Source: a virus. Taken from it: a DNA stretch of 45,051 bases. Below, piece after piece: positions 1-45,051 of this stretch (within the stretch, counting starts at the first letter, position 1; the number at the start of each line of letters is the position of its first letter). Location of the stretch: IMG/VR virus record IMGVR_UViG_3300006853_000025, positions 1-45,051 of that record; one strand, given 5' to 3'. Position numbers and translations under genes: made by a program. Below the pieces are notes generated by a model. It worked only from the letters and a program-made list of their open reading frames with translations. It was not told where the DNA came from and made no database searches.

Positions 1-100
1 GGTGACCTTTGCCCGCAAGTCTGCTACGTAGTCGTGCCTCCATTTGTGCTGTGCCTTTGCGATCTTGATACGATCCTTGATGAACTCCCTCAGCTCCTTG
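1..100. repeat. terminal direct repeat, left copy (contig circularity)
   Basis: Bases 1-100 are identical to 44952-45051. The repeat lies inside the glycosyltransferase gene, whose frame continues without interruption from base 1 into 44951. This fits an assembly overlap of a circular or circularly permuted molecule better than a true short terminal repeat. The implied unit length is 44,951 bp. Confidence 0.95.
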
Positions 101-963
101 CGGCTGCCGACTGTGAACGGTTCGATATCTATGTCGTACTCACCGCTGTCGTCGTAAAAGCTGCGCTCTCTGAACCTCTCGAATGTGCGCGTACAGTCCT
201 CGTCGAACGCGATGGGCAAGCCAGCACTAAGCATCTCGAAGAACCGTGTGGCCGGGCTGTGATACTCCGTGTGTTGCCGCTTGTCTTCTATGTACAGTCC
301 AGCACCGTACGAGCGTAGTCGTTTTAACCAATTGTCGCCCTTGATAGGCTGCAGCAGGCACAGTCTTGGATACAGCATCGGAAAGTCTTTGCTTGGCGAT
401 GCTACGTGCATCCAATCGCCTGCCTTGGCAAAGTACGTGTCGAACGCCTCCTTGCGATAGTCCCGGAAGTAGCCGTAGTAGATGGCACACCGATCGAGTG
501 CAGACGGCTCTGTGACTGGCGGTAGATCTAACGGCGTGTAGGCCATTGCATTCCAGTTGACGTACCTGTCGCGCTTGTTCTTCACGTACTCTTCGACCGT
601 GGTCCAGAACTCCATGTCCGGCAAGCCTGCTTCCTTGCGCTCACGAAATGCCGCACGGAATGGGCTCTCGCCTTTTGAGTCTGACTTGGGCGGAACGATT
701 GCGTAGTCATTCTGTATCCAAATGATTCGCTTGGCGATGCGTACGGCTGGAGCTACGCATTCTATGTGCTTGCAGAATGCAAACGGCCCATTCACTATGA
801 ACAGCACGTCCAGCTGCTTCAGCTTGCCGACGTTCTTGCCGAACCATTCGTTGTTCCATACGAGCGGAGCATCAGCAAGCTCCGATACGAGCCGTGCGAT
901 CTTGTCACTTGGAGTGATGCTCGTATCGCGCGGCTCTATGAAAGTCCAGACTGCCGCTTTCAT
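1..963 (-). CDS. glycosyltransferase-like protein (5' part; gene crosses the contig join)
   Basis: The frame starts at ATG 963 and has no stop before base 1. Continued through the join it ends at TAA 44928, giving about 328 residues. The sequence reads like a GT-B type glycosyltransferase. It opens MKAAVWTFIEP, and around residues 236-250 carries SPATRFFEMLSAGLP, the donor-site type motif in which a conserved Glu precedes a small Gly/Pro loop. The start overlaps the stop of the upstream 67-residue gene as ATGA. Gene order (TS-like, sulfotransferase-like, this gene, then a thymine-hypermodification-type enzyme) suggests it could glycosylate a modified DNA base, but that is inference. A surface-glycan target is an alternative. 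Family assignment is by motif only. Confidence 0.7.
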   Translation of the reverse strand, partial: MKAAVWTFIEPRDTSITPSDKIARLVSELADAPLVWNNEWFGKNVGKLKQLDVLFIVNGPFAFCKHIECVAPAVRIAKRIIWIQNDYAIVPPKSDSKGESPFRAAFRERKEAGLPDMEFWTTVEEYVKNKRDRYVNWNAMAYTPLDLPPVTEPSALDRCAIYYGYFRDYRKEAFDTYFAKAGDWMHVASPSKDFPMLYPRLCLLQPIKGDNWLKRLRSYGAGLYIEDKRQHTEYHSPATRFFEMLSAGLPIAFDEDCTRTFERFRERSFYDDSGEYDIDIEPFTVGSRKELREFIKDRIKIAKAQHKWRHDYVADLRAKVT

Positions 964-1163
964 AGGCCCTCCACCTTGCCGCACTTCTTGCACTTGTACT
1001 GCACATCGACGGCCGTACATCGCCATACGTCGCTGATGCAATCCCAATCATGACGGCACCATATACGTTGCCACCACTTTGGCGACAACATGAAAAGCAG
1101 AGCAGCGAAGAGCATCGCTGCTAGCACTACGATCAGCATCCACACGCTTGTGTTCAATCCCAT
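960..1163 (-). CDS. small membrane protein with C-terminal zinc-ribbon-like motif
   Basis: 67 residues. A hydrophobic segment at about residues 6-27 (WMLIVVLAAMLFAALLFML) should span the inner membrane. It is followed by a short cytoplasmic tail with WCRHDWDC and KCKKCGK, which looks like a Cys/His metal-binding ribbon of the type common in small phage proteins. The stop overlaps the glycosyltransferase start (ATGA) and the start overlaps the end of the upstream 325-residue gene by 10 bases, so it sits inside the modification cluster. Function unknown. Confidence 0.7.
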   Translation of the reverse strand: MGLNTSVWMLIVVLAAMLFAALLFMLSPKWWQRIWCRHDWDCISDVWRCTAVDVQYKCKKCGKVEGL

Positions 1164-2131
1164 GGCAGATTCTCCTGTACAGGGGCTGTGAACTTGGAAC
1201 GAGTCTTGCCCTCCTTACGCTTGATGCGCATGTACTTGTCGAACTCGCAAAGCGAGTGCTCTATCTCGCGCATTTCAAACGGTGTCTCGCACCTACGCGT
1301 GAGTGCGCTCAGCTTGCGTGGCGCCATCTTCCACAGTGCGCGCATCATGCGGTTATAGTCCGGCCTTGGCTTTCCCGACGGCCACTCGTACGAGCCGCAC
1401 AGCAGCCTATGAATACCGCGCATCGCGCCTGGGCCCGCGTTGGCCCAAGATAGCTTGTCCTTCGCATCAGCGAGCAATCGCGTGTGGCGAAGGTCACACA
1501 CGATCTCATACGCAATGAAAGGCCCTATGGTCGGGACCTTCTGTAGCAGCTGTGTTGCGAAGCGCATCGACATCTTGCGCTTGATCTTGCGTGCGAACAA
1601 TCTACGGTTAGGCGGTCGCTGCGGCAAGCCTTTTAGCCGGCGCTCTTCCATGTCCTTGGGGTCGCGACCGTCCCACAACACTTCTAGCGCTTCAGATATC
1701 GTCTTAGCCTTGTCCGGCTTACCTGCCGACGGGATGATGTACGCGCCAGTGAAGATCTGCTTGCCTTCTGCCTTGCGAGCGTGAAGTATCTCTATGGCTT
1801 TGGCCAGATTCCATTTGCGTGGCGCTAGCCCATAGTCCAGGGCGTCGTAGGTTTCCGGCCAGTTGAACAACCGGAACATGGCGACTCTGAACAGTAGATC
1901 TTCATCCTTTTCCACCGCCTTGCTTCCTAGCATGGTGATGTATCTACGGACCCACTCTTGCGTGACCCGGTCATGCTGTCTGAACGGGTTGGTGAACTTG
2001 TACTCCTGCAGTATGCGATCCTTGGTCCAAGGAAAAGGCTTGCCAGTCTTGCGCGACTCGTAGATCTTGTGGCGCTCGTTGATCCAATACCAGAACATGC
2101 GCAATTGCTGCGCTCTCCATTTGATCTTCAT
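1154..2131 (-). CDS. putative DNA base hypermodification enzyme (alpha-glutamyl/putrescinyl-thymine pyrophosphorylase or HMUDK helical-domain family)
   Basis: 325 residues. The N-terminal segment (WYWINERHKIYESRK, KPFPWTKDRILQEYKF, TNPFRQHDRVTQEWV, residues about 14-62) is the characteristic opening of the phage family predicted to have a DNA-glycosylase-like helical fold. In phages with hypermodified thymine, members transfer an amino acid or polyamine to activated 5-hydroxymethyl-dU in DNA. The central part (FATQLLQKVPTIGPFIAYEI) fits the helix-hairpin-helix region, and ANAGPGAMRGIHRLL is also typical. The start overlaps the upstream stop as ATGA. The expected partner, a canonical 5-hmdU DNA kinase, is not evident in the window, but a TS-like enzyme, a sulfotransferase-like P-loop protein and a glycosyltransferase lie immediately downstream. 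The exact transferred group cannot be read from sequence. Confidence 0.75.
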   Translation of the reverse strand: MKIKWRAQQLRMFWYWINERHKIYESRKTGKPFPWTKDRILQEYKFTNPFRQHDRVTQEWVRRYITMLGSKAVEKDEDLLFRVAMFRLFNWPETYDALDYGLAPRKWNLAKAIEILHARKAEGKQIFTGAYIIPSAGKPDKAKTISEALEVLWDGRDPKDMEERRLKGLPQRPPNRRLFARKIKRKMSMRFATQLLQKVPTIGPFIAYEIVCDLRHTRLLADAKDKLSWANAGPGAMRGIHRLLCGSYEWPSGKPRPDYNRMMRALWKMAPRKLSALTRRCETPFEMREIEHSLCEFDKYMRIKRKEGKTRSKFTAPVQENLPWD

Positions 2132-2653: not shown

Positions 2654-3943
2654 TTACGCGGCCTTGATGAAGCCGCGCTTGACGAAGAGCGGGAGCCACT
2701 TCTTCACCTTGGCGGTGTTGAGGCCCTCTTCCTTCGCCGTCGCTAGCAGCGCCTTGACCTTGATGCCCTTCTTCGGGATCAGAGCAATCAGGTCGGACTT
2801 CGGTCCGCCGCCGGGCCGCTTCTTGAGGAAGCTTACAGTAGTACTGTCGCCGATCTTCACCTTCTCGACGGCCTCGCTCTTGTCGGCCTTGGCGGATTTC
2901 TTCGTCTTCACGGAACTCTCCTTCTTTGAACTCTTGGGTTTGCGACGCGAGGGCTTGTCGTCCTCTTCGTCTTCGTCTTCGTCCTCGTCCTCGTCCTCGT
3001 CATCCTTGGCGGCGCGCTTGGCTTTGGACGACTTCTTGCCGAAGCGCGACTTGCGAGGCTTCTCCTCCTCCTCGTCTTCGTCTTCCTCCTCGTCTTCCTC
3101 TTCGTCTTCGTCCTCCTCTTCGTCCTCCTCTTCGTCCTCGTCCTTACTGCCCTTCTTGCCCTTCTTGGCCTTGCCCTTGCGACGCGAGGGCTTGTCGTCC
3201 TCTTCGTCTTCGTCCTCGTCCTCGTCTTCGTCTTCGTCTTCGTCTTCGTCTTCGTCTTCGTCTTCGTCTTCGTCTTCGTCCTCATCACCGTCCTCGTCTT
3301 CCTCGTCCTTCTCACGGCCCTTGGCCTGGAGGGCGGCGTTCTTGCGTTCCAGTTCTTCGTTCATTTCATCATCCTCTTCTGAGTTGGACTTACTTCTACG
3401 CGACCGGCTTGGAACCGGCCACTCATCCTCCAAAGCCTCGCGGTCACGTATTCTGACTGCACCGGAGTCCTTGGTTCCATTGAGATAGTTGCGCACATCG
3501 AATGCCCACACTACCAGCAATACTGCGAAATCGAATGCCTCTATGTACTCGCGTGTAGCAACTGGCCGTCCGAGCCCCGTGCCTATCAGCAGGCTGAGCT
3601 GTGCCCAAGATAGCTTCGCTAGGCAGGCTTGCATCTCGAACATGAACTTGGCGTCTGCCTTGCGCTCATTCAAGTACAAGCAATAGGTCGGCGGCTTGCT
3701 ACCGGCTTCCTTGAAGCTCTTCAGCATGAAGTCAAAGAGCTGCGGTCTGAAAATCTTCATCTTCACACGATCGAGCATGTGCTGCCGCGCTAAGCGCGGA
3801 TCCTTTGGTGCTCGCGTTTCTTGCCGTCCACCGTTCTTACGCGACTGCTTCTCTTCTTGCTTCGCTCGCTCACGGCGTCGTGCACGCTTCCGTATCGCCT
3901 TGAGCTCTTCTCGTGTCGTCGGAACGAACTCTTTGCTTTCCAC
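2654..3943 (-). CDS. acidic-repeat protein with Asp/Glu tracts
   Basis: About 429 residues from GTG 3943, chosen because GGAGAAACACAA precedes it. The same frame is open further upstream, but there it only overlaps the SNF2 helicase in another frame. An ATG at about 3780 (MLDRVKMKIF) is the non-overlapping alternative. The first about 190 residues are globular (LSWAQLSLLIGTGLGRP, AFDFAVLLVVWAFDV). Residues about 195-350 are DEDEDE and DEEEDE blocks separated by basic KPSRRKGKAKKGKK and KPSRRKPKSSKK linkers. The last about 70 residues (DLIALIPKKGIKVKALLATA, KVKKWLPLFVKRGF) look like a small helical, winged-helix-like domain. A 36-bp segment encoding the repeat/linker junction is duplicated exactly. 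The charge pattern suggests a DNA-mimic, nucleoid or protein-docking role. Function unknown. Confidence 0.7.
   Translation of the reverse strand: MESKEFVPTTREELKAIRKRARRRERAKQEEKQSRKNGGRQETRAPKDPRLARQHMLDRVKMKIFRPQLFDFMLKSFKEAGSKPPTYCLYLNERKADAKFMFEMQACLAKLSWAQLSLLIGTGLGRPVATREYIEAFDFAVLLVVWAFDVRNYLNGTKDSGAVRIRDREALEDEWPVPSRSRRSKSNSEEDDEMNEELERKNAALQAKGREKDEEDEDGDEDEDEDEDEDEDEDEDEDEDEDEDEDEEDDKPSRRKGKAKKGKKGSKDEDEEEDEEEDEDEEEDEEEDEDEEEEKPRKSRFGKKSSKAKRAAKDDEDEDEDEDEDEEDDKPSRRKPKSSKKESSVKTKKSAKADKSEAVEKVKIGDSTTVSFLKKRPGGGPKSDLIALIPKKGIKVKALLATAKEEGLNTAKVKKWLPLFVKRGFIKAA
2942..3214 (-). repeat. low-complexity acidic coding repeat with a duplicated 36-bp unit
   Basis: The minus-strand coding sequence is built from GAC/GAG/GAA codon arrays, seen on the plus strand as runs of gtcttc and gtcctc. 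The 36 bp at 2942-2977 recur exactly at 3179-3214 and encode an acidic stretch leading into KPSRRK. The runs continue to about 3310. This points to growth by slippage and internal duplication. Confidence 0.85.
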
Positions 3944-16042: not shown

Positions 16043-16242
16043 CTTGCTCTCCTGCTGTAGACATCCCAAAGCGTAGGCGCCTGCTTGGCCAGCTTCAGCT
16101 CCTCGCTCCAAACTTCTATCGCGATGTCGACAGCCTCTTCAGGCGAGCCGACGCTCGTGTTTCCCTCGACGACGAAGAACCCTTTATCAGACTCGACGCC
16201 TCTGATAGTACGGCGTCTAGTCTTGTGCTTGATGATTCTCAC
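16027..16242 (-). CDS. hypothetical protein
   Basis: 71 residues from GTG 16242, overlapping the upstream stop as GTGA after GGAGGGCAGAGAA. Composition: RIIKHKTRRRTIRG, then GFFVVEGNTSVGSPEEAVDI, with a helical end. It resembles its downstream neighbour in size and in the beta-then-helix arrangement. Function unknown. Confidence 0.6.
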   Translation of the reverse strand: MRIIKHKTRRRTIRGVESDKGFFVVEGNTSVGSPEEAVDIAIEVWSEELKLAKQAPTLWDVYSRRARCVAG

Positions 16243-17111
16243 TTCTCTGCCCTCCACTTGGCTACAGCCTTGGCCACCTTGCGCCTTGCCTGTTCTACAG
16301 CCTTCTTCGACCACGACCGTGCAGCAGGGTGTGGCAGCTTTACTATCTGCGCACCACTGGCCATGCTCGGCTCGAATGTGGCCTGCGCCACGTTGCCACA
16401 GACTATCACTATGTCTGTCTGCAGCTTGCTTAGGTTAGCCGACAACCATTCCTTGCTCGGCTTGCCCTTGCTGCGTGCGCTGTGAACCAGCTGCGGGCAA
16501 GCATTGGTCACGCGAAAGTCTTGATGACCGATGATGTCGATCAAGCGCCGGCCCGAATGATTGTACGGATTTATATGGAACCAGCGCTGCACCTTGTCAG
16601 TCGGCATGCCCCACATGACTTCCAGTACGACCACGATCTTCGGCCTTGCCGCACGCAGCCTTTCAAGCGTTGGCCCATCTACGTGCATCGGCTCGGATAG
16701 CTCGCCGTCGAAGTATCCGTACAGCACGTCGCGCACCATCTTGATGACCTTGTTGCTGCAACCGTGCGCCCTCAACAGCACCTCGTCAGCGTCGTTCACT
16801 GGCAGCGCCACGTTCTCGAACGCGTCGTTATCGCCGGGCATCGGTTTTAGGTCTTTGCGAAAGAGTGGCTCGAACGTCAGCCGATTCTCTTCGGTGTTCA
16901 AGTTCTTACCTAGCAAGCCCTTCACCGTCTTACCCTTGAGCGACATTAAGATGCCTTCGGCAGTCATGAACTTGTTGCGCCACCGTTCCGGTACGACGTA
17001 CTCTTTGTTGAGTACGCGGAAGTTGCCATTGTCACCATCCGACAAGGCGAATGCCTTGCACAGCATGGGCAGTTCCGTGATCTTCAGAGGCGACTGTGTC
17101 GACTTACTCAT
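16239..17111 (-). CDS. UDG-superfamily-like protein
   Basis: 290 residues. The C-terminal half has elements in the order seen in uracil-DNA-glycosylase-superfamily proteins: INPYNHSGRR (Asn181, motif-I-like), FRVTNACPQLV, KLQTDIVIVCGNVAQATF and LPHPAARSW (His261, the HPS/HPA motif). The N-terminal about 150 residues are unrecognised. AAGGAGATCGAA precedes the ATG. In a phage suspected of thymine modification it could excise host or unmodified uracil, or read or protect a modified base, but catalysis is not assured. The assignment is by motif order only. Confidence 0.5.
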   Translation of the reverse strand: MSKSTQSPLKITELPMLCKAFALSDGDNGNFRVLNKEYVVPERWRNKFMTAEGILMSLKGKTVKGLLGKNLNTEENRLTFEPLFRKDLKPMPGDNDAFENVALPVNDADEVLLRAHGCSNKVIKMVRDVLYGYFDGELSEPMHVDGPTLERLRAARPKIVVVLEVMWGMPTDKVQRWFHINPYNHSGRRLIDIIGHQDFRVTNACPQLVHSARSKGKPSKEWLSANLSKLQTDIVIVCGNVAQATFEPSMASGAQIVKLPHPAARSWSKKAVEQARRKVAKAVAKWRAEK

Positions 17112-24012: not shown

Positions 24013-24024
24013 AAGGAGCGCCTC

Positions 24025-25905
24025 ATGCCGACGAAACCGAAGGGCGCTGGTCTGCTGCGTGTCATGTCAGCAGTCGGCGCGACTACGCGGGCCCTCATCG
24101 CGAAGCTGCATGGGCAGCAGTTCGATGGTGCTCGCGATCTGTACGACGTGTGCGGGTATCCTCGTGCGCTGATGCCATCTGACTACGAGGGCGCGTATCT
24201 ACGCGGCGATATCGCCGCACGCATCTTGGACGCATTTCCGGATGCGACGTGGAGAGAGTCCCCTGTCATCAAGGCTGAGAGCGACAAGACAGGAGAGGGC
24301 GCATTCAAGAAGGCCGTGGATGCGCTGGCCGAGGAGACGAAGCTCTGGTACGCACTCAGTCGTTTGGATCGGCTAGCCGGCATGGGGCACTACGGAGTCA
24401 TGTTGATAGGCATGGCGGGCGCAGAGCCTCTTACTGAGCCTGTGAGGGGCAAGTCCGAGAAGATCATCTACCTGTCTCCGCACAGTGAGCGCAGTGCAGA
24501 CGTGACTCGTTGGGATGACAACGCAACGAGCCCGCGCTTCGGCAAGCCTGAACTTTACAACCTCACGATCGGCGTGGGGCGCACAGGGCAAGGAGGCGGA
24601 GAGCGTCGCGTCACGGTGCATCACTCTCGAGTGATTCATGTGGCTGAGAAGGCGTTGAGTGATGAGGCTATCGGACAGCCTCGTCTGGAGCGCATCTGGA
24701 ACAGGCTGATGGATCTGGACAAGACTCTCGGTGGATCGGCTGAGGTCTACTGGCAAAACGCCGCCATGATCCGTGCGTGGGTCGCAGATCCTGAGGTCGA
24801 GTGGGATCCTAAGGAGCAGGAGGATATGAAGGCTCAGCTCGAAGAGCTCATGCACGGCCTGCGCCGTGACGTTCGCCTGCGCGGTGTTGCGCCCGAAGTG
24901 CTTTCGGGCAATCCCACAGATCCTACGGGAGTGTTCGATAAGCTCATCGATATCATCGCAGGCGCGCAGGGAATCCCGAAGCGCATTCTCATAGGCTCGG
25001 AGCGCGGCGAACTCAGCTCTGAGCAGGATGAAGTGAACTGGGCCTCGCGTATCCAAGAGCGTCGCAAGCACTATGCGGAGCCTCTGGTGATTCGTCCGTT
25101 CATCGACCGATGCATTGAGTACGGTATCTTGAAGATGCCGGAAGGCGGCAAGTACATTGTTGAGTGGGCCAATGCCGACGCGCTCGGTGAGCAGAGCAAG
25201 GCGGAAGTCGCAGAGCGGAAGTCTAACGCGCTACGGAACTACGTGAGCACTCCAGGCGCAGAGTTCGTTGTGCCGCAGGAAGAGTTCCGCACGTCGTTCC
25301 TCGGCCTCGATCCTGTGAGCCAGTACACTGGCGAAGCGCTCGAAGGCCGCGAGGCTCCGGTCGATGAAAGCAACCCTGAGGTCGCTGATGAGTTTGCACA
25401 GAACAGACTAAAGGCGAATGCGAAGCCTCGCACGCTCTATGTGAGGCGCAACGTCCTCAACGCGAAGGACATCTTGCGTTGGGCGTCAGAGCAAGGATTT
25501 GCTAGCGTCGTGCCGGGCGATGAGATGCACGTGACTATCGCCTATAGCGAGCAGCCTGTCGATTGGCTCAAGGTGGGCGAGTCGTATAGTCAGGAGCGCG
25601 ACGGTTCTATGCGTGTCGCACCAGGGGGCGCGCGTCTTGTCGAAGAGCTGGGCTCAGATGACGCTATCGTTCTCATGTTCACCAGCTCCGAGCTTAGCTG
25701 GCGCTGGTTCCACATCAAGGAGTGCGGAGCTTCGTGGAAGTATGGCGAGGACTACCAGCCCCACATCACGATCACCTACGAGGGAGATCCGGAGCTGGAC
25801 CTTACCAGAATCGAGCCGTACAGAGGACCGATAGTCCTCGGACCTGAGATCTTCGAAGAGGTAGTCGACGACTGGTCGTCTGACCTCGAAGAGGTGAGCG
25901 CGTGA
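24025..25905 (+). CDS. portal protein (DUF1073-like) fused to an Acb1-type anti-CBASS domain
   Basis: 626 residues. Residues about 1-450 form a DUF1073-type portal (GDIAARILDAFPDATWRESP, AGAQGIPKRILIGSERGELS, VNWASRIQERR), the dodecameric DNA gate of the head. From about residue 470 the sequence changes to a two-histidine phosphoesterase domain: RTLYVRRNVLNAKDILRWA, MHVTIAYSEQPVDW (H502, T504), WRWFHIKECGASWKYG and PHITITYE (H580, T582). Acb1 enzymes hydrolyse cyclic oligonucleotide signals of CBASS defence, and portal-Acb1 fusions are known in this family. Both HxT motifs are intact. Confidence 0.88.
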   Translation: MPTKPKGAGLLRVMSAVGATTRALIAKLHGQQFDGARDLYDVCGYPRALMPSDYEGAYLRGDIAARILDAFPDATWRESPVIKAESDKTGEGAFKKAVDALAEETKLWYALSRLDRLAGMGHYGVMLIGMAGAEPLTEPVRGKSEKIIYLSPHSERSADVTRWDDNATSPRFGKPELYNLTIGVGRTGQGGGERRVTVHHSRVIHVAEKALSDEAIGQPRLERIWNRLMDLDKTLGGSAEVYWQNAAMIRAWVADPEVEWDPKEQEDMKAQLEELMHGLRRDVRLRGVAPEVLSGNPTDPTGVFDKLIDIIAGAQGIPKRILIGSERGELSSEQDEVNWASRIQERRKHYAEPLVIRPFIDRCIEYGILKMPEGGKYIVEWANADALGEQSKAEVAERKSNALRNYVSTPGAEFVVPQEEFRTSFLGLDPVSQYTGEALEGREAPVDESNPEVADEFAQNRLKANAKPRTLYVRRNVLNAKDILRWASEQGFASVVPGDEMHVTIAYSEQPVDWLKVGESYSQERDGSMRVAPGGARLVEELGSDDAIVLMFTSSELSWRWFHIKECGASWKYGEDYQPHITITYEGDPELDLTRIEPYRGPIVLGPEIFEEVVDDWSSDLEEVSA

Positions 25906-42972: not shown

Positions 42973-44151
42973 CTACTTCTGACGTCGACGTTCCAACCAA
43001 CGGATGCAGGCTGTCGACCAATCCTCTGCCTCGCAGCGCTCTTGCAGATGGGCTTGTGCAGCGTCGATCTTAGTGTTCTTGTCGACTACCTCATCGTCGT
43101 TCTTATACAGTCGCCACGCCGTCATCATAGGCACCGCCACGCTGTGGAAGAACGGCATGATGCGCCCGCCATAGGTGCCTAACCTGTCGTTGAGGAAGTA
43201 GTGGTTCTGTGCCAGCCACTCTCCCCATCGTGGGGCGCTTTCATCAGTCGGCATGAGTGGAACAAGATTGAATCTGGACCGTCCGAACTGATCTGCATAC
43301 GGATCACCATGGCCAACGTCTTCCGCATAAGAAGCGCTGCACTTGAGCCAAGTGTTCTGGCTGGTGTAGACGTGGAAGCTATCGCTGACCTGACGATAGC
43401 ATCCGACTTCGACACCCACGGCGCACGCTACGAACTCTTGTAACATGCTGAACTGAACAGCGTTGGCGCCGTAGGCTCCCCACATGGCGTCGTTGCTGCG
43501 ATTCATGACGGTCATGTCCAACACGCCGTCGCGCAACTTGAACGCGACCAAGTCGTTGCAGGGGATATCCTTGCTCTCACGGTTCAAATCCTTGACTGGA
43601 TCCCACAGGCACAGCACAGCACGACGCGTATCCGGATCTCGCCGTAGTAGCTCTACGATCTCAACGACCTGATCTACCGTCTCCATGCCCACGATGGCGC
43701 GCTCCTCGGGGTGGAAGGAGTAGTTGATTTCCGTACCGAATATCGCGGTCTTGAAGTGTCGTCGCAGTCTGTAGCCGTACGGCGCATTGAACGTCTTGCC
43801 ATCGTCGCTGAACGTGCTGATGTTCGAGTTGAACTGGTTCAGAAACGCCACGTCGTCTCGCCCGTCCATGATCCACAACGCCTCCATGAAGTGGAAGAAC
43901 GGATTGGCGTCGCGCACCGGATTGAACAGCACGCGCTCTTTTGGACAAGCGTACTCTGTAACGAACACTCCCCGGTACTCCAGCGTTTCCATGCCGCGCG
44001 GAGAGATGGTGCGCCATAGCTGCGGTATCTGCGCGAGGCCCATCAGATGGTTGAACGCCTCGTTCACATTACGAACCGAAGCGATATGCACGTTGCCTAT
44101 ACGCTGACTGCGCGTGGCACCAGAGCCGTGCCCGTGTATGAAGTTGGTCAT
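42973..44151 (-). CDS. thymidylate-synthase family enzyme, possible dUMP hydroxymethylase
   Basis: 392 residues. TS-family features: RRAVLCLWDPVKDL (phosphate-binding Arg), DIPCNDLVAFKLRDGVL with nucleophilic Cys198 (His of the usual PCH is Asn), MNRSNDAMWGAYGANAVQF (Asn near the base-specificity position, which suggests a uracil rather than cytosine substrate) and DSFHVY. Phages with modified thymine use such a homologue to make 5-hydroxymethyl-dUMP instead of dTMP. The extended N- and C-termini and the PCN change differ from ordinary ThyA. It precedes DUF3310 and follows the sulfotransferase-like gene. Ordinary thymidylate synthase activity is the alternative. Confidence 0.8.
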   Translation of the reverse strand: MTNFIHGHGSGATRSQRIGNVHIASVRNVNEAFNHLMGLAQIPQLWRTISPRGMETLEYRGVFVTEYACPKERVLFNPVRDANPFFHFMEALWIMDGRDDVAFLNQFNSNISTFSDDGKTFNAPYGYRLRRHFKTAIFGTEINYSFHPEERAIVGMETVDQVVEIVELLRRDPDTRRAVLCLWDPVKDLNRESKDIPCNDLVAFKLRDGVLDMTVMNRSNDAMWGAYGANAVQFSMLQEFVACAVGVEVGCYRQVSDSFHVYTSQNTWLKCSASYAEDVGHGDPYADQFGRSRFNLVPLMPTDESAPRWGEWLAQNHYFLNDRLGTYGGRIMPFFHSVAVPMMTAWRLYKNDDEVVDKNTKIDAAQAHLQERCEAEDWSTACIRWLERRRQK

Positions 44152-44162
44152 ATGGAAATTCC

Positions 44163-44921
44163 TCAGTAGTCGAATCGGTTAGCGATGCGGGCTATGTGCT
44201 TCGCCAACGGTCTGTCTTCCTTCTCCATCATGGCGTAGGTAATGACGTTGGCCTTGTAGATTCCGCTGCTCTTGTTGGTAGGTGGCAGCTCGGGCATCGG
44301 CAGCTTTCGATCCTGCCCAAGCATGGACATGAGTGTCGGCCACTTCTTCGGCACGTCCTCTAGACGAATGGTCATGTCGCAGTTGCCTAGCACTCGCGAC
44401 CAGATTCCATACGCCATGTGCATGGTCTTGCAAAGTCGCGAGACTGTCGTATCGGTGTAGATCTCCTTCATGTATGCTCGATTGTCTACGGCGTACCAGT
44501 GATCGGTCATCGACATGACGCGACTCATTGAGCCGATGACTTTCAAGGGGTCGCGAATTAGGTGCACGACGTAGTCGAATCTGAAATCACTTCGCCGCTC
44601 GCCCACGTGAATCACACGGCCCACAGGCCGGTGGCTCACGTGGTACGGATGCCAGTTGCTGTCTGCGAAGAAGTACCAGCTGACCGTACCGTGCTGGCCG
44701 CAGTGCTCGTGCGGGCAATCGATGTCGGCCTTCTCAAATGTCTTCGCCAGCCAAGTTGTTCCACTGCGCCCGTTCCCAGTGACGAGCAGTGGAAGTCTGA
44801 ATCTGTGAGCATCCAGCTTGCTCACACCGTATAGCGGGGTTCGAGAGCGCTCGCTGATGCGCCCGTAGCTTACCAACTTACGGCCCGCTCCGTAAGGGCT
44901 GCTGTTTGTTATGTCGCTCAT
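44163..44921 (-). CDS. sulfotransferase-like P-loop protein
   Basis: 252 residues. GNGRSGTTW (49-57) matches the 5'-phosphosulfate-binding loop and RDPLKVIGS (123-131) the 3'-phosphate-binding motif of PAPS-dependent sulfotransferases. The intervening part contains PHEHCGQHG, and a helical C-terminus follows (LPPTNKSSGIYKANVITYAM). Sulfotransferases are rare in phages. The location between a glycosyltransferase (6 bases away) and a TS-like enzyme suggests a modified nucleotide, sugar or glycan as acceptor. The acceptor, and whether the donor is PAPS, cannot be told from sequence. Confidence 0.75.
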   Translation of the reverse strand: MSDITNSSPYGAGRKLVSYGRISERSRTPLYGVSKLDAHRFRLPLLVTGNGRSGTTWLAKTFEKADIDCPHEHCGQHGTVSWYFFADSNWHPYHVSHRPVGRVIHVGERRSDFRFDYVVHLIRDPLKVIGSMSRVMSMTDHWYAVDNRAYMKEIYTDTTVSRLCKTMHMAYGIWSRVLGNCDMTIRLEDVPKKWPTLMSMLGQDRKLPMPELPPTNKSSGIYKANVITYAMMEKEDRPLAKHIARIANRFDY

Positions 44922-44927
44922 GTAGGG

Positions 44928-45051
44928 TTACAGTACCTTCTTCATTAGCTTGGTGACCTTTGCCCGCAAGTCTGCTACGTAGTCGTGCCTCCATTTGTGC
45001 TGTGCCTTTGCGATCTTGATACGATCCTTGATGAACTCCCTCAGCTCCTTG
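44928..45051 (-). CDS. glycosyltransferase-like protein, 3' end (same gene as 1-963)
   Basis: C-terminal part of the gene that starts at 963. The last codons after base 1 encode KLMKKVL followed by TAA (44928-44930). The stop lies 6 bases from the start of the sulfotransferase-like gene at 44921, so the two are tightly packed in one leftward unit. Bases 44952-45051 are the duplicated overlap. Confidence 0.7.
   Translation of the reverse strand, partial: KELREFIKDRIKIAKAQHKWRHDYVADLRAKVTKLMKKVL
44952..45051. repeat. terminal direct repeat, right copy
   Basis: Exact copy of bases 1-100 at the right edge of the window. It should be removed when circularising, and genes should be annotated across the join. 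Confidence 0.95.

Follow-up and report, generated by a model that had tools for sequence, protein, structure and literature searches.

What would a sulfotransferase do among the genes with which a phage modifies the bases of its DNA? The question is raised by the 45,051-nt stretch of viral DNA considered here (the window, by which we mean the whole stretch), where a sequence-only reading had noticed a run of genes, crossing the contig join, that resembles a DNA-hypermodification cassette. To our knowledge, no natural DNA base carries a sulfate or a sulfamate; phosphorothioates place sulfur in the DNA backbone.

Searches and samples

We scanned IMG/VR with profiles of the sulfotransferase (ST), of the glycosyltransferase (GT) and of aGPT-Pplase1, the amino acid:DNA transferase-type enzyme of the cassette, and obtained about 180 distinct Pplase loci. 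The ST family was located by HMMs built for this analysis and by searches of whole records. It was found in 8 phages, i.e., that of the window and seven uncultivated ones (L002, L016, L017, L026, L033, L096 and L067); L096 was first located through the ST search, not the others.

Genome and cassette layout

Since the final 100 bases of the window are an exact copy of its initial 100, its true circular length is 44,951 bp, and it is a complete circular phage genome. Outside the cassette there are typical tailed-phage genes (PolA, primase, SNF2 helicase, PDDEXK nuclease, terminase, portal, capsid and tail). Five contiguous ORFs span the join, in the order aGPT-Pplase1, 67-aa protein, GT, ST and TS-like enzyme (Table 1), so that the single leftward run had been read correctly. 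Its junctions are also much as claimed (4-base overlaps, 6 and about 11 bases): aGPT-Pplase1 and the 67-aa protein overlap by 10 bases, the 67-aa protein and GT by 4, and the gaps are of 6 bases between GT and ST and of 11 bases between ST and TS. The GT gene reads across the join without any frameshift, from position 963 down to 1 and then from 44951 to 44928. The order GT-ST-TS is found again in the sister phage L002, whose ST is 83% identical to that of the window. The 67-residue membrane protein, which had been counted as a part of the cassette, is not conserved, its position in L002 being taken by other small ORFs, and its membership of the system is doubtful.

Table 1. Positions in the window of the cassette genes and of the terminal repeat
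Feature	Positions	Strand	Length	Basis or remark
Terminal repeat (join), copy 1	1..100	.		Duplicates 44952-45051
GT	1..963 + 44928..45051 (3' end of gene; 44952-45051 repeats 1-100)	-	328 aa in total	PF13524, weak
67-aa protein	960..1163	-	67 aa	One hydrophobic segment, Cys-rich tail; phrog_7696 (function unknown), E 6e-6
aGPT-Pplase1 (amino acid:DNA transferase-type)	1154..2131	-	325 aa	PF18723, E 5.9e-61
TS-like pyrimidine hydroxymethylase, probable dUMP hydroxymethylase	42973..44151	-	392 aa	PF00303, E 1.3e-20; phrog_5131, E 1e-102
PAPS-type ST	44163..44921	-	252 aa	5'-PSB-like GNGRSGTTW; 3'-PB-like R123-x7-S131

At 2654-3830 of the window (- strand), with the SNF2 helicase on one side and the cassette on the other, there is a protein with very long repeats rich in Asp/Glu, which is also present in L002; a related-looking gene adjoins the SNF2 helicase in L096. 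The portal protein (PF06381; 24025-25905, + strand) carries an Acb1 (anti-CBASS) domain (PF23474, E 6e-37) as a C-terminal fusion.

aGPT-Pplase1 and the TS-like enzyme

The PF18723 match of aGPT-Pplase1 (206.7 bits, with a cut-off of 25) covers residues 10-308, practically the full length of the protein. The amino acid:DNA-transferase-like call is therefore confirmed and, more exactly, the enzyme belongs to the already known M6-type aGPT-Pplase1 family, which has matches in 461 phage records, including M6 ORF055 at 35%. The window protein keeps the residues that are invariant in kinase-type relatives. A sequence search of the PDB with the Pplase gave no convincing match.

In the TS-like enzyme the reported PCN in place of PCH was found at residues 197-199, C198 being the active-site Cys and N199 the residue after it. 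In the alignment, the motif at this Cys is PCN in the window, M6 and SPO1 gp29, whereas E. coli ThyA has PCH and T4 gp42 has MCT. As a criterion of specificity for uracil over cytosine we considered the Asn of ThyA PFNIASYA, with which N230 of the TS-like protein aligns and which the dCMP hydroxymethylase T4 gp42 does not have. Since PCN is common to the SPO1 dUMP hydroxymethylase and to M6, and the ThyA Asn is kept, the motif is not odd and marks the hydroxymethyl-uracil branch of the TS superfamily; the enzyme fits a probable dUMP hydroxymethylase. The closest solved structure to the family profile is the CMP 5-hydroxymethylase 5b6d.

As in the systems of Pseudomonas phage M6, Salmonella phage ViI and Delftia phage phiW-14 (PMC6449724), a dUMP-hydroxymethylase-type TS and aGPT-Pplase1 are clustered in the window (the clustering is shown for M6), but the 5-hmdU kinase of those systems, which has been purified for M6 (PMC6449724), is missing, and ST and GT are present instead. 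The pairing of a hydroxymethylase with kinases and transferases, named by the sequence-only reading, stands here for the hydroxymethylase and the transferase and fails for the expected 5-hmdU DNA kinase in the whole genome. Precisely, neither the M6 and EP_H11 kinases nor a 13-sequence kinase profile gave any match in the window genome, which has no small P-loop kinase and in which Walker A occurs only in the terminase and in a MoxR-like ATPase. The M6 kinase is presumably gp54, as we judge from its P-loop and its position beside the Pplase; GenBank labels it a terminase subunit.

Sulfotransferase and supply of PAPS

The sulfotransferase-like call is sustained by both PAPS-binding motifs and by the fold of a low-confidence model. 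GNGRSGTTW and R123-x7-S131 match the two PAPS-phosphate sites and have the classical spacing. The SGT loop and the Arg-x7-Ser pair are invariant across the family (n = 8), and the core around SGT deviates in L017 (GTGSSGTK) and L026 (ACGRSGTL). Pfam Sulfotransfer_3 (PF13469) matches the window ST with an E-value of 2e-4 and 22.1 bits, under the gathering score of 27, and a match of any strength was obtained for 4 of the 6 members examined; against the sequences of the PDB, the ST profile had no convincing match. The AlphaFold model has a mean pLDDT of 65 and Foldseek alone gave an E-value of 0.035. In a second look, the best 50 structure matches were all sulfotransferases (Z from 9.1 to 6.4), with the STs of CurM and of olefin synthases among the top ones (Z up to 9.1). 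On this model, a sulfotransferase fold is predicted with moderate confidence. The computed pI is between 9.4 and 9.8 in all the seven members (of 8) for which it was calculated, as for DNA-acting enzymes.

The product of an APS kinase gene makes PAPS, the sulfate donor, and such a gene accompanies ST in two of the phages. In L033 it lies between Pplase and ST (PF01583, E 2.7e-12); in the L067 record a full APS kinase (24767-25321, E 1.8e-67) overlaps by 4 bases the end of the ST gene (24021-24770). These were the only two records with an APS kinase over the cut-off among the 50 searched, and none was found in the 42 related records without ST. Because the two couplings are independent and their gene orders opposite, the ST family very likely uses PAPS; these phages invest in the donor for their ST.

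Glycosyltransferase

The glycosyltransferase call is backed by an AlphaFold model (pLDDT 80) whose best match is the T4 DNA beta-glucosyltransferase (BGT; 1nzd, Z 18.7, 294 of 328 residues, rmsd 3.8), followed by the T4 DNA alpha-glucosyltransferase (AGT; Z 16.1). The modelled GT-B fold thus appears closest to that of T4 BGT, with an identity of 14-17%; the T4 enzyme acts on hydroxymethylcytosine, whereas the acceptor of the window GT would be hydroxymethyluracil or a derivative. D86, invariant in the GT family, is a candidate for the BGT catalytic Asp. The sequence-only reading had named, as a result that would speak against it, structure predictions that put GT and ST in host-surface glycan families without a conserved link to the TS-like gene; the opposite was found, the best matches of GT being the T4 DNA glucosyltransferases.

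The GTs that partner ST come from families with no sequence relationship to one another (hhalign probability about 0-1%), and profile comparison with hhalign did not unite the three of them; a single conserved sugar acceptor is therefore not obvious. In L016, L026 and L096, and not in the window, the cassette contains a TAGT (TET-associated glycosyltransferase, PF20691). Unlike in TAGT systems, no TET enzyme was found among the neighbours scanned, and the base would come from the TS-like enzyme.

Linkage of the genes among related phages

The aGPT-Pplase1 gene, the TS-like gene and a candidate GT are each present in all the 8 ST phages. The search of other phages for the same neighbourhood has thus added seven cases of ST with aGPT-Pplase1 and a TS-like gene, and the link between ST and the latter, on which the sequence-only reading had made its proposal depend, holds throughout. 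In five of the 8 phages the gene immediately before ST is a GT or a TAGT. A candidate GT occurs in 33 of the 79 other dereplicated loci (p 0.0016 against 8/8) and, TAGT being left out, in 12 of 79 (p 2e-6 against 8/8), both values ignoring kinship and depending, as do the kinase statistics below, on the families sampled. Since, in the records searched, ST always occurs with aGPT-Pplase1, a TS-like gene and a GT, and the APS kinase only with ST, sulfonation is very probably a part of the DNA-hypermodification pathways of these phages.

Besides TAGT, an APH-type kinase and a nucleotidyltransferase are encoded in L016 and L096; with the two additional enzymes the pathway is more complex, and the modification product is probably more elaborate.

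Proposed pathway

We hold, with about even confidence, that the cassette is a thymidine-hypermodification variant ending in a sulfonated, glycosylated base. The TS-like enzyme, as its family and motif suggest, would produce 5-hydroxymethyl-dUMP, which would replace thymine in the phage DNA. The T4-BGT-like GT would then add a sugar to the hydroxymethyl group or, alternatively, to the group placed by aGPT-Pplase1; its fold is that of the model, and the acceptor is what we infer. Finally, ST, for which the use of PAPS is well supported, would take a sulfo group from this donor and place it on a hydroxyl of the sugar or of the side chain, the position being conjectural; in relatives bearing PIG-L the acceptor would perhaps be an amine. 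The thymine so modified would be bulky and negatively charged, and may shield the DNA from restriction. The earlier suggestion of a thymine or hydroxymethyluracil that is glycosylated and/or sulfated is therefore supported by the gene linkage, the T4-like GT fold, the APS kinase and the TS motif. Against the pathway as proposed we set the low Pfam score and low model confidence of ST, the unrelated families of its partner GTs, the additional enzymes of L016 and L096, and a direct link between ST and Pplase, which would fit other readings too.

Alternative explanations

The main alternative is that ST takes the place of the 5-hmdU DNA kinase: 5-sulfooxymethyl-dU would be made in the DNA, aGPT-Pplase1 would displace the sulfate, instead of a phosphate, with an amino acid or amine, and GT would act afterwards. 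We consider this possible, though somewhat unlikely, and we give about the same weight to its most novel form, in which sulfate, supplied by PAPS, replaces phosphate as the leaving group in DNA hypermodification, an amino acid or other nucleophile displaces it, and ST and the kinase are interchangeable activating modules. What speaks for activation is that ST and the M6-type kinase never occur together. The kinase family is present in 42 of 179 loci and in none of the 8 ST phages (whole records searched), and no ST was found in the 36 records with a kinase that were searched, which include those of two cultured phages (hypergeometric p 0.015 for 92 records and 0.045 for records of at least 20 kb, kinship ignored). 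In the Pplase tree, ST occurs at no fewer than four separate places, three of which (the tips L026, L017 and L033) are inside or beside kinase-bearing clades. The replacement is suggested by this placement and by the cassette of Escherichia phage EP_H11, where GT, aGPT-Pplase1, a P-loop kinase and TS form one unbroken run and the kinase adjoins TS, in the position held by ST in the window. The missing small P-loop kinase of the complete window genome points the same way, as do the fold matches: the STs of CurM and olefin synthases are PAPS-dependent and sulfonate a hydroxyl, making it a leaving group (PMC3903477). They have the predicted fold and, very likely, the PAPS dependence in common with the window ST, but they are polyketide domains working on beta-hydroxyacyl chains, not on DNA (PMC3903477).

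However, kinase absence and GT presence are confounded: considering the GT families found here, GT is in 8/8 ST loci, in 4/32 kinase loci and in 29/47 loci with neither, and 29 of the 37 loci with GT and without kinase are also without ST. Moreover, kinase and ST are both missing from many phages with aGPT-Pplase1. Three of them, the marine phages G011, G025 and G014 (records of L034, L124 and L054), were read whole: they have aGPT-Pplase1 and TS-like genes, and their sole classical Walker A is that of a helicase. aGPT-Pplase1 is therefore not strictly dependent on a recognisable activator. In the Pplase alignment no column follows the ST type, and no Pplase signature of the ST type was found. 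As the kinase absence tracks GT with or without ST and the marine phages have neither, we downgraded the plain replacement of the kinase by ST and put decoration first and activation second: most likely, ST sulfonates the glycosylated base.

It is unlikely that hydroxymethyluracil is sulfonated as the end product (5-sulfooxymethyl-dU), with glycosylation going on in parallel on other residues. The gene linkage would be the same in this case, and the ST family is constant while the GTs vary; against it we set the strong association of ST with GT and the nature of the product, a benzylic-type sulfate ester, which should be reactive and unstable.

Still less probable is that GT and ST act on a non-DNA target (a host surface glycan, a phage protein or a small molecule) and are neighbours by chance. 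Most bacterial sulfotransferases do act on glycans or small molecules, and sulfotransferase-like genes unrelated to the cassette occur in such phages; but the linkage of ST to aGPT-Pplase1 and TS in 8/8 phages across at least four Pplase lineages, the tight or overlapping gene junctions and the T4-BGT-like fold argue for DNA. Finally, an enzyme of sulfotransferase fold that no longer uses PAPS, e.g., a phosphotransferase, could explain the weak Pfam score and the differing SGT core of L017 and L026, and is very improbable given the 3'-phosphate-binding R-x7-S pair kept in all 8 members and the APS kinase coupled to ST in two phages.

Relation to known systems

A GT homologous to that of the window (26%, E 2e-12) is present in Escherichia phages EP_H11 and IME392, in a cassette annotated as hypothetical, beside aGPT-Pplase1 and TS (EP_H11 was examined); these cassettes differ from the window in having a P-loop kinase and a PIG-L deacetylase and no sulfotransferase. 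Searching 50,697 phage records with the STs of the window and of L017 gave no match; the ST of L033 had only a weak one, in phage C48C1, where no gene in the surrounding 20 kb is annotated as TS or Pplase. Literature searches of the accessible papers for a sulfotransferase with phage DNA modification returned nothing relevant. The statement that no described system combines a sulfotransferase with these parts thus agrees with the cultured phage records and the accessible papers: aGPT-Pplase/TS cassettes and glycosylated DNA were known already, and a sulfotransferase with an APS kinase in such a cassette was found in none of these records and papers.

If the proposal is true, the chemistry of DNA would be extended by sulfonation, through an APS kinase and an ST that phages themselves encode among their base-modification genes. 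Such cassettes would predict new restriction-resistant bases, and hydroxymethyluracil could be labelled with a tool driven by PAPS. Since some aGPT-Pplase1 cassettes have a kinase, others a glycosyltransferase and others a sulfotransferase, it becomes a concrete question what aGPT-Pplase1 does where the kinase is missing.

Other observations

A sulfotransferase-like ORF of a marine Pplase phage (L196) was rejected as a cassette part, being absent from the relatives of that phage. Another one, of a different family (L199, 18417-19088), belongs to a phage with a kinase (record of L056), where it follows TS at a distance of 3.6 kb. The L017 record has at its end (L195; G003 contig, 52757-53314, - strand) a protein of 514 aa whose N-terminal half is sulfotransferase-like; its gene is the second of this kind in that phage.

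The window also encodes, at 16239-17111 (- strand), a UDG-superfamily domain (PF03167, E 3e-8), in a phage with probable hydroxymethyluracil DNA.

Genes for APH-fold kinases are located at 11418-12188 in L036, 8546-9442 in L096 and 5980-6843 in L016. A nucleotidyltransferase accompanies them in L016 and L096, and probably in L036, where an HAD gene lies between TAGT and TS; these enzymes possibly make an unusual nucleotide-activated donor.
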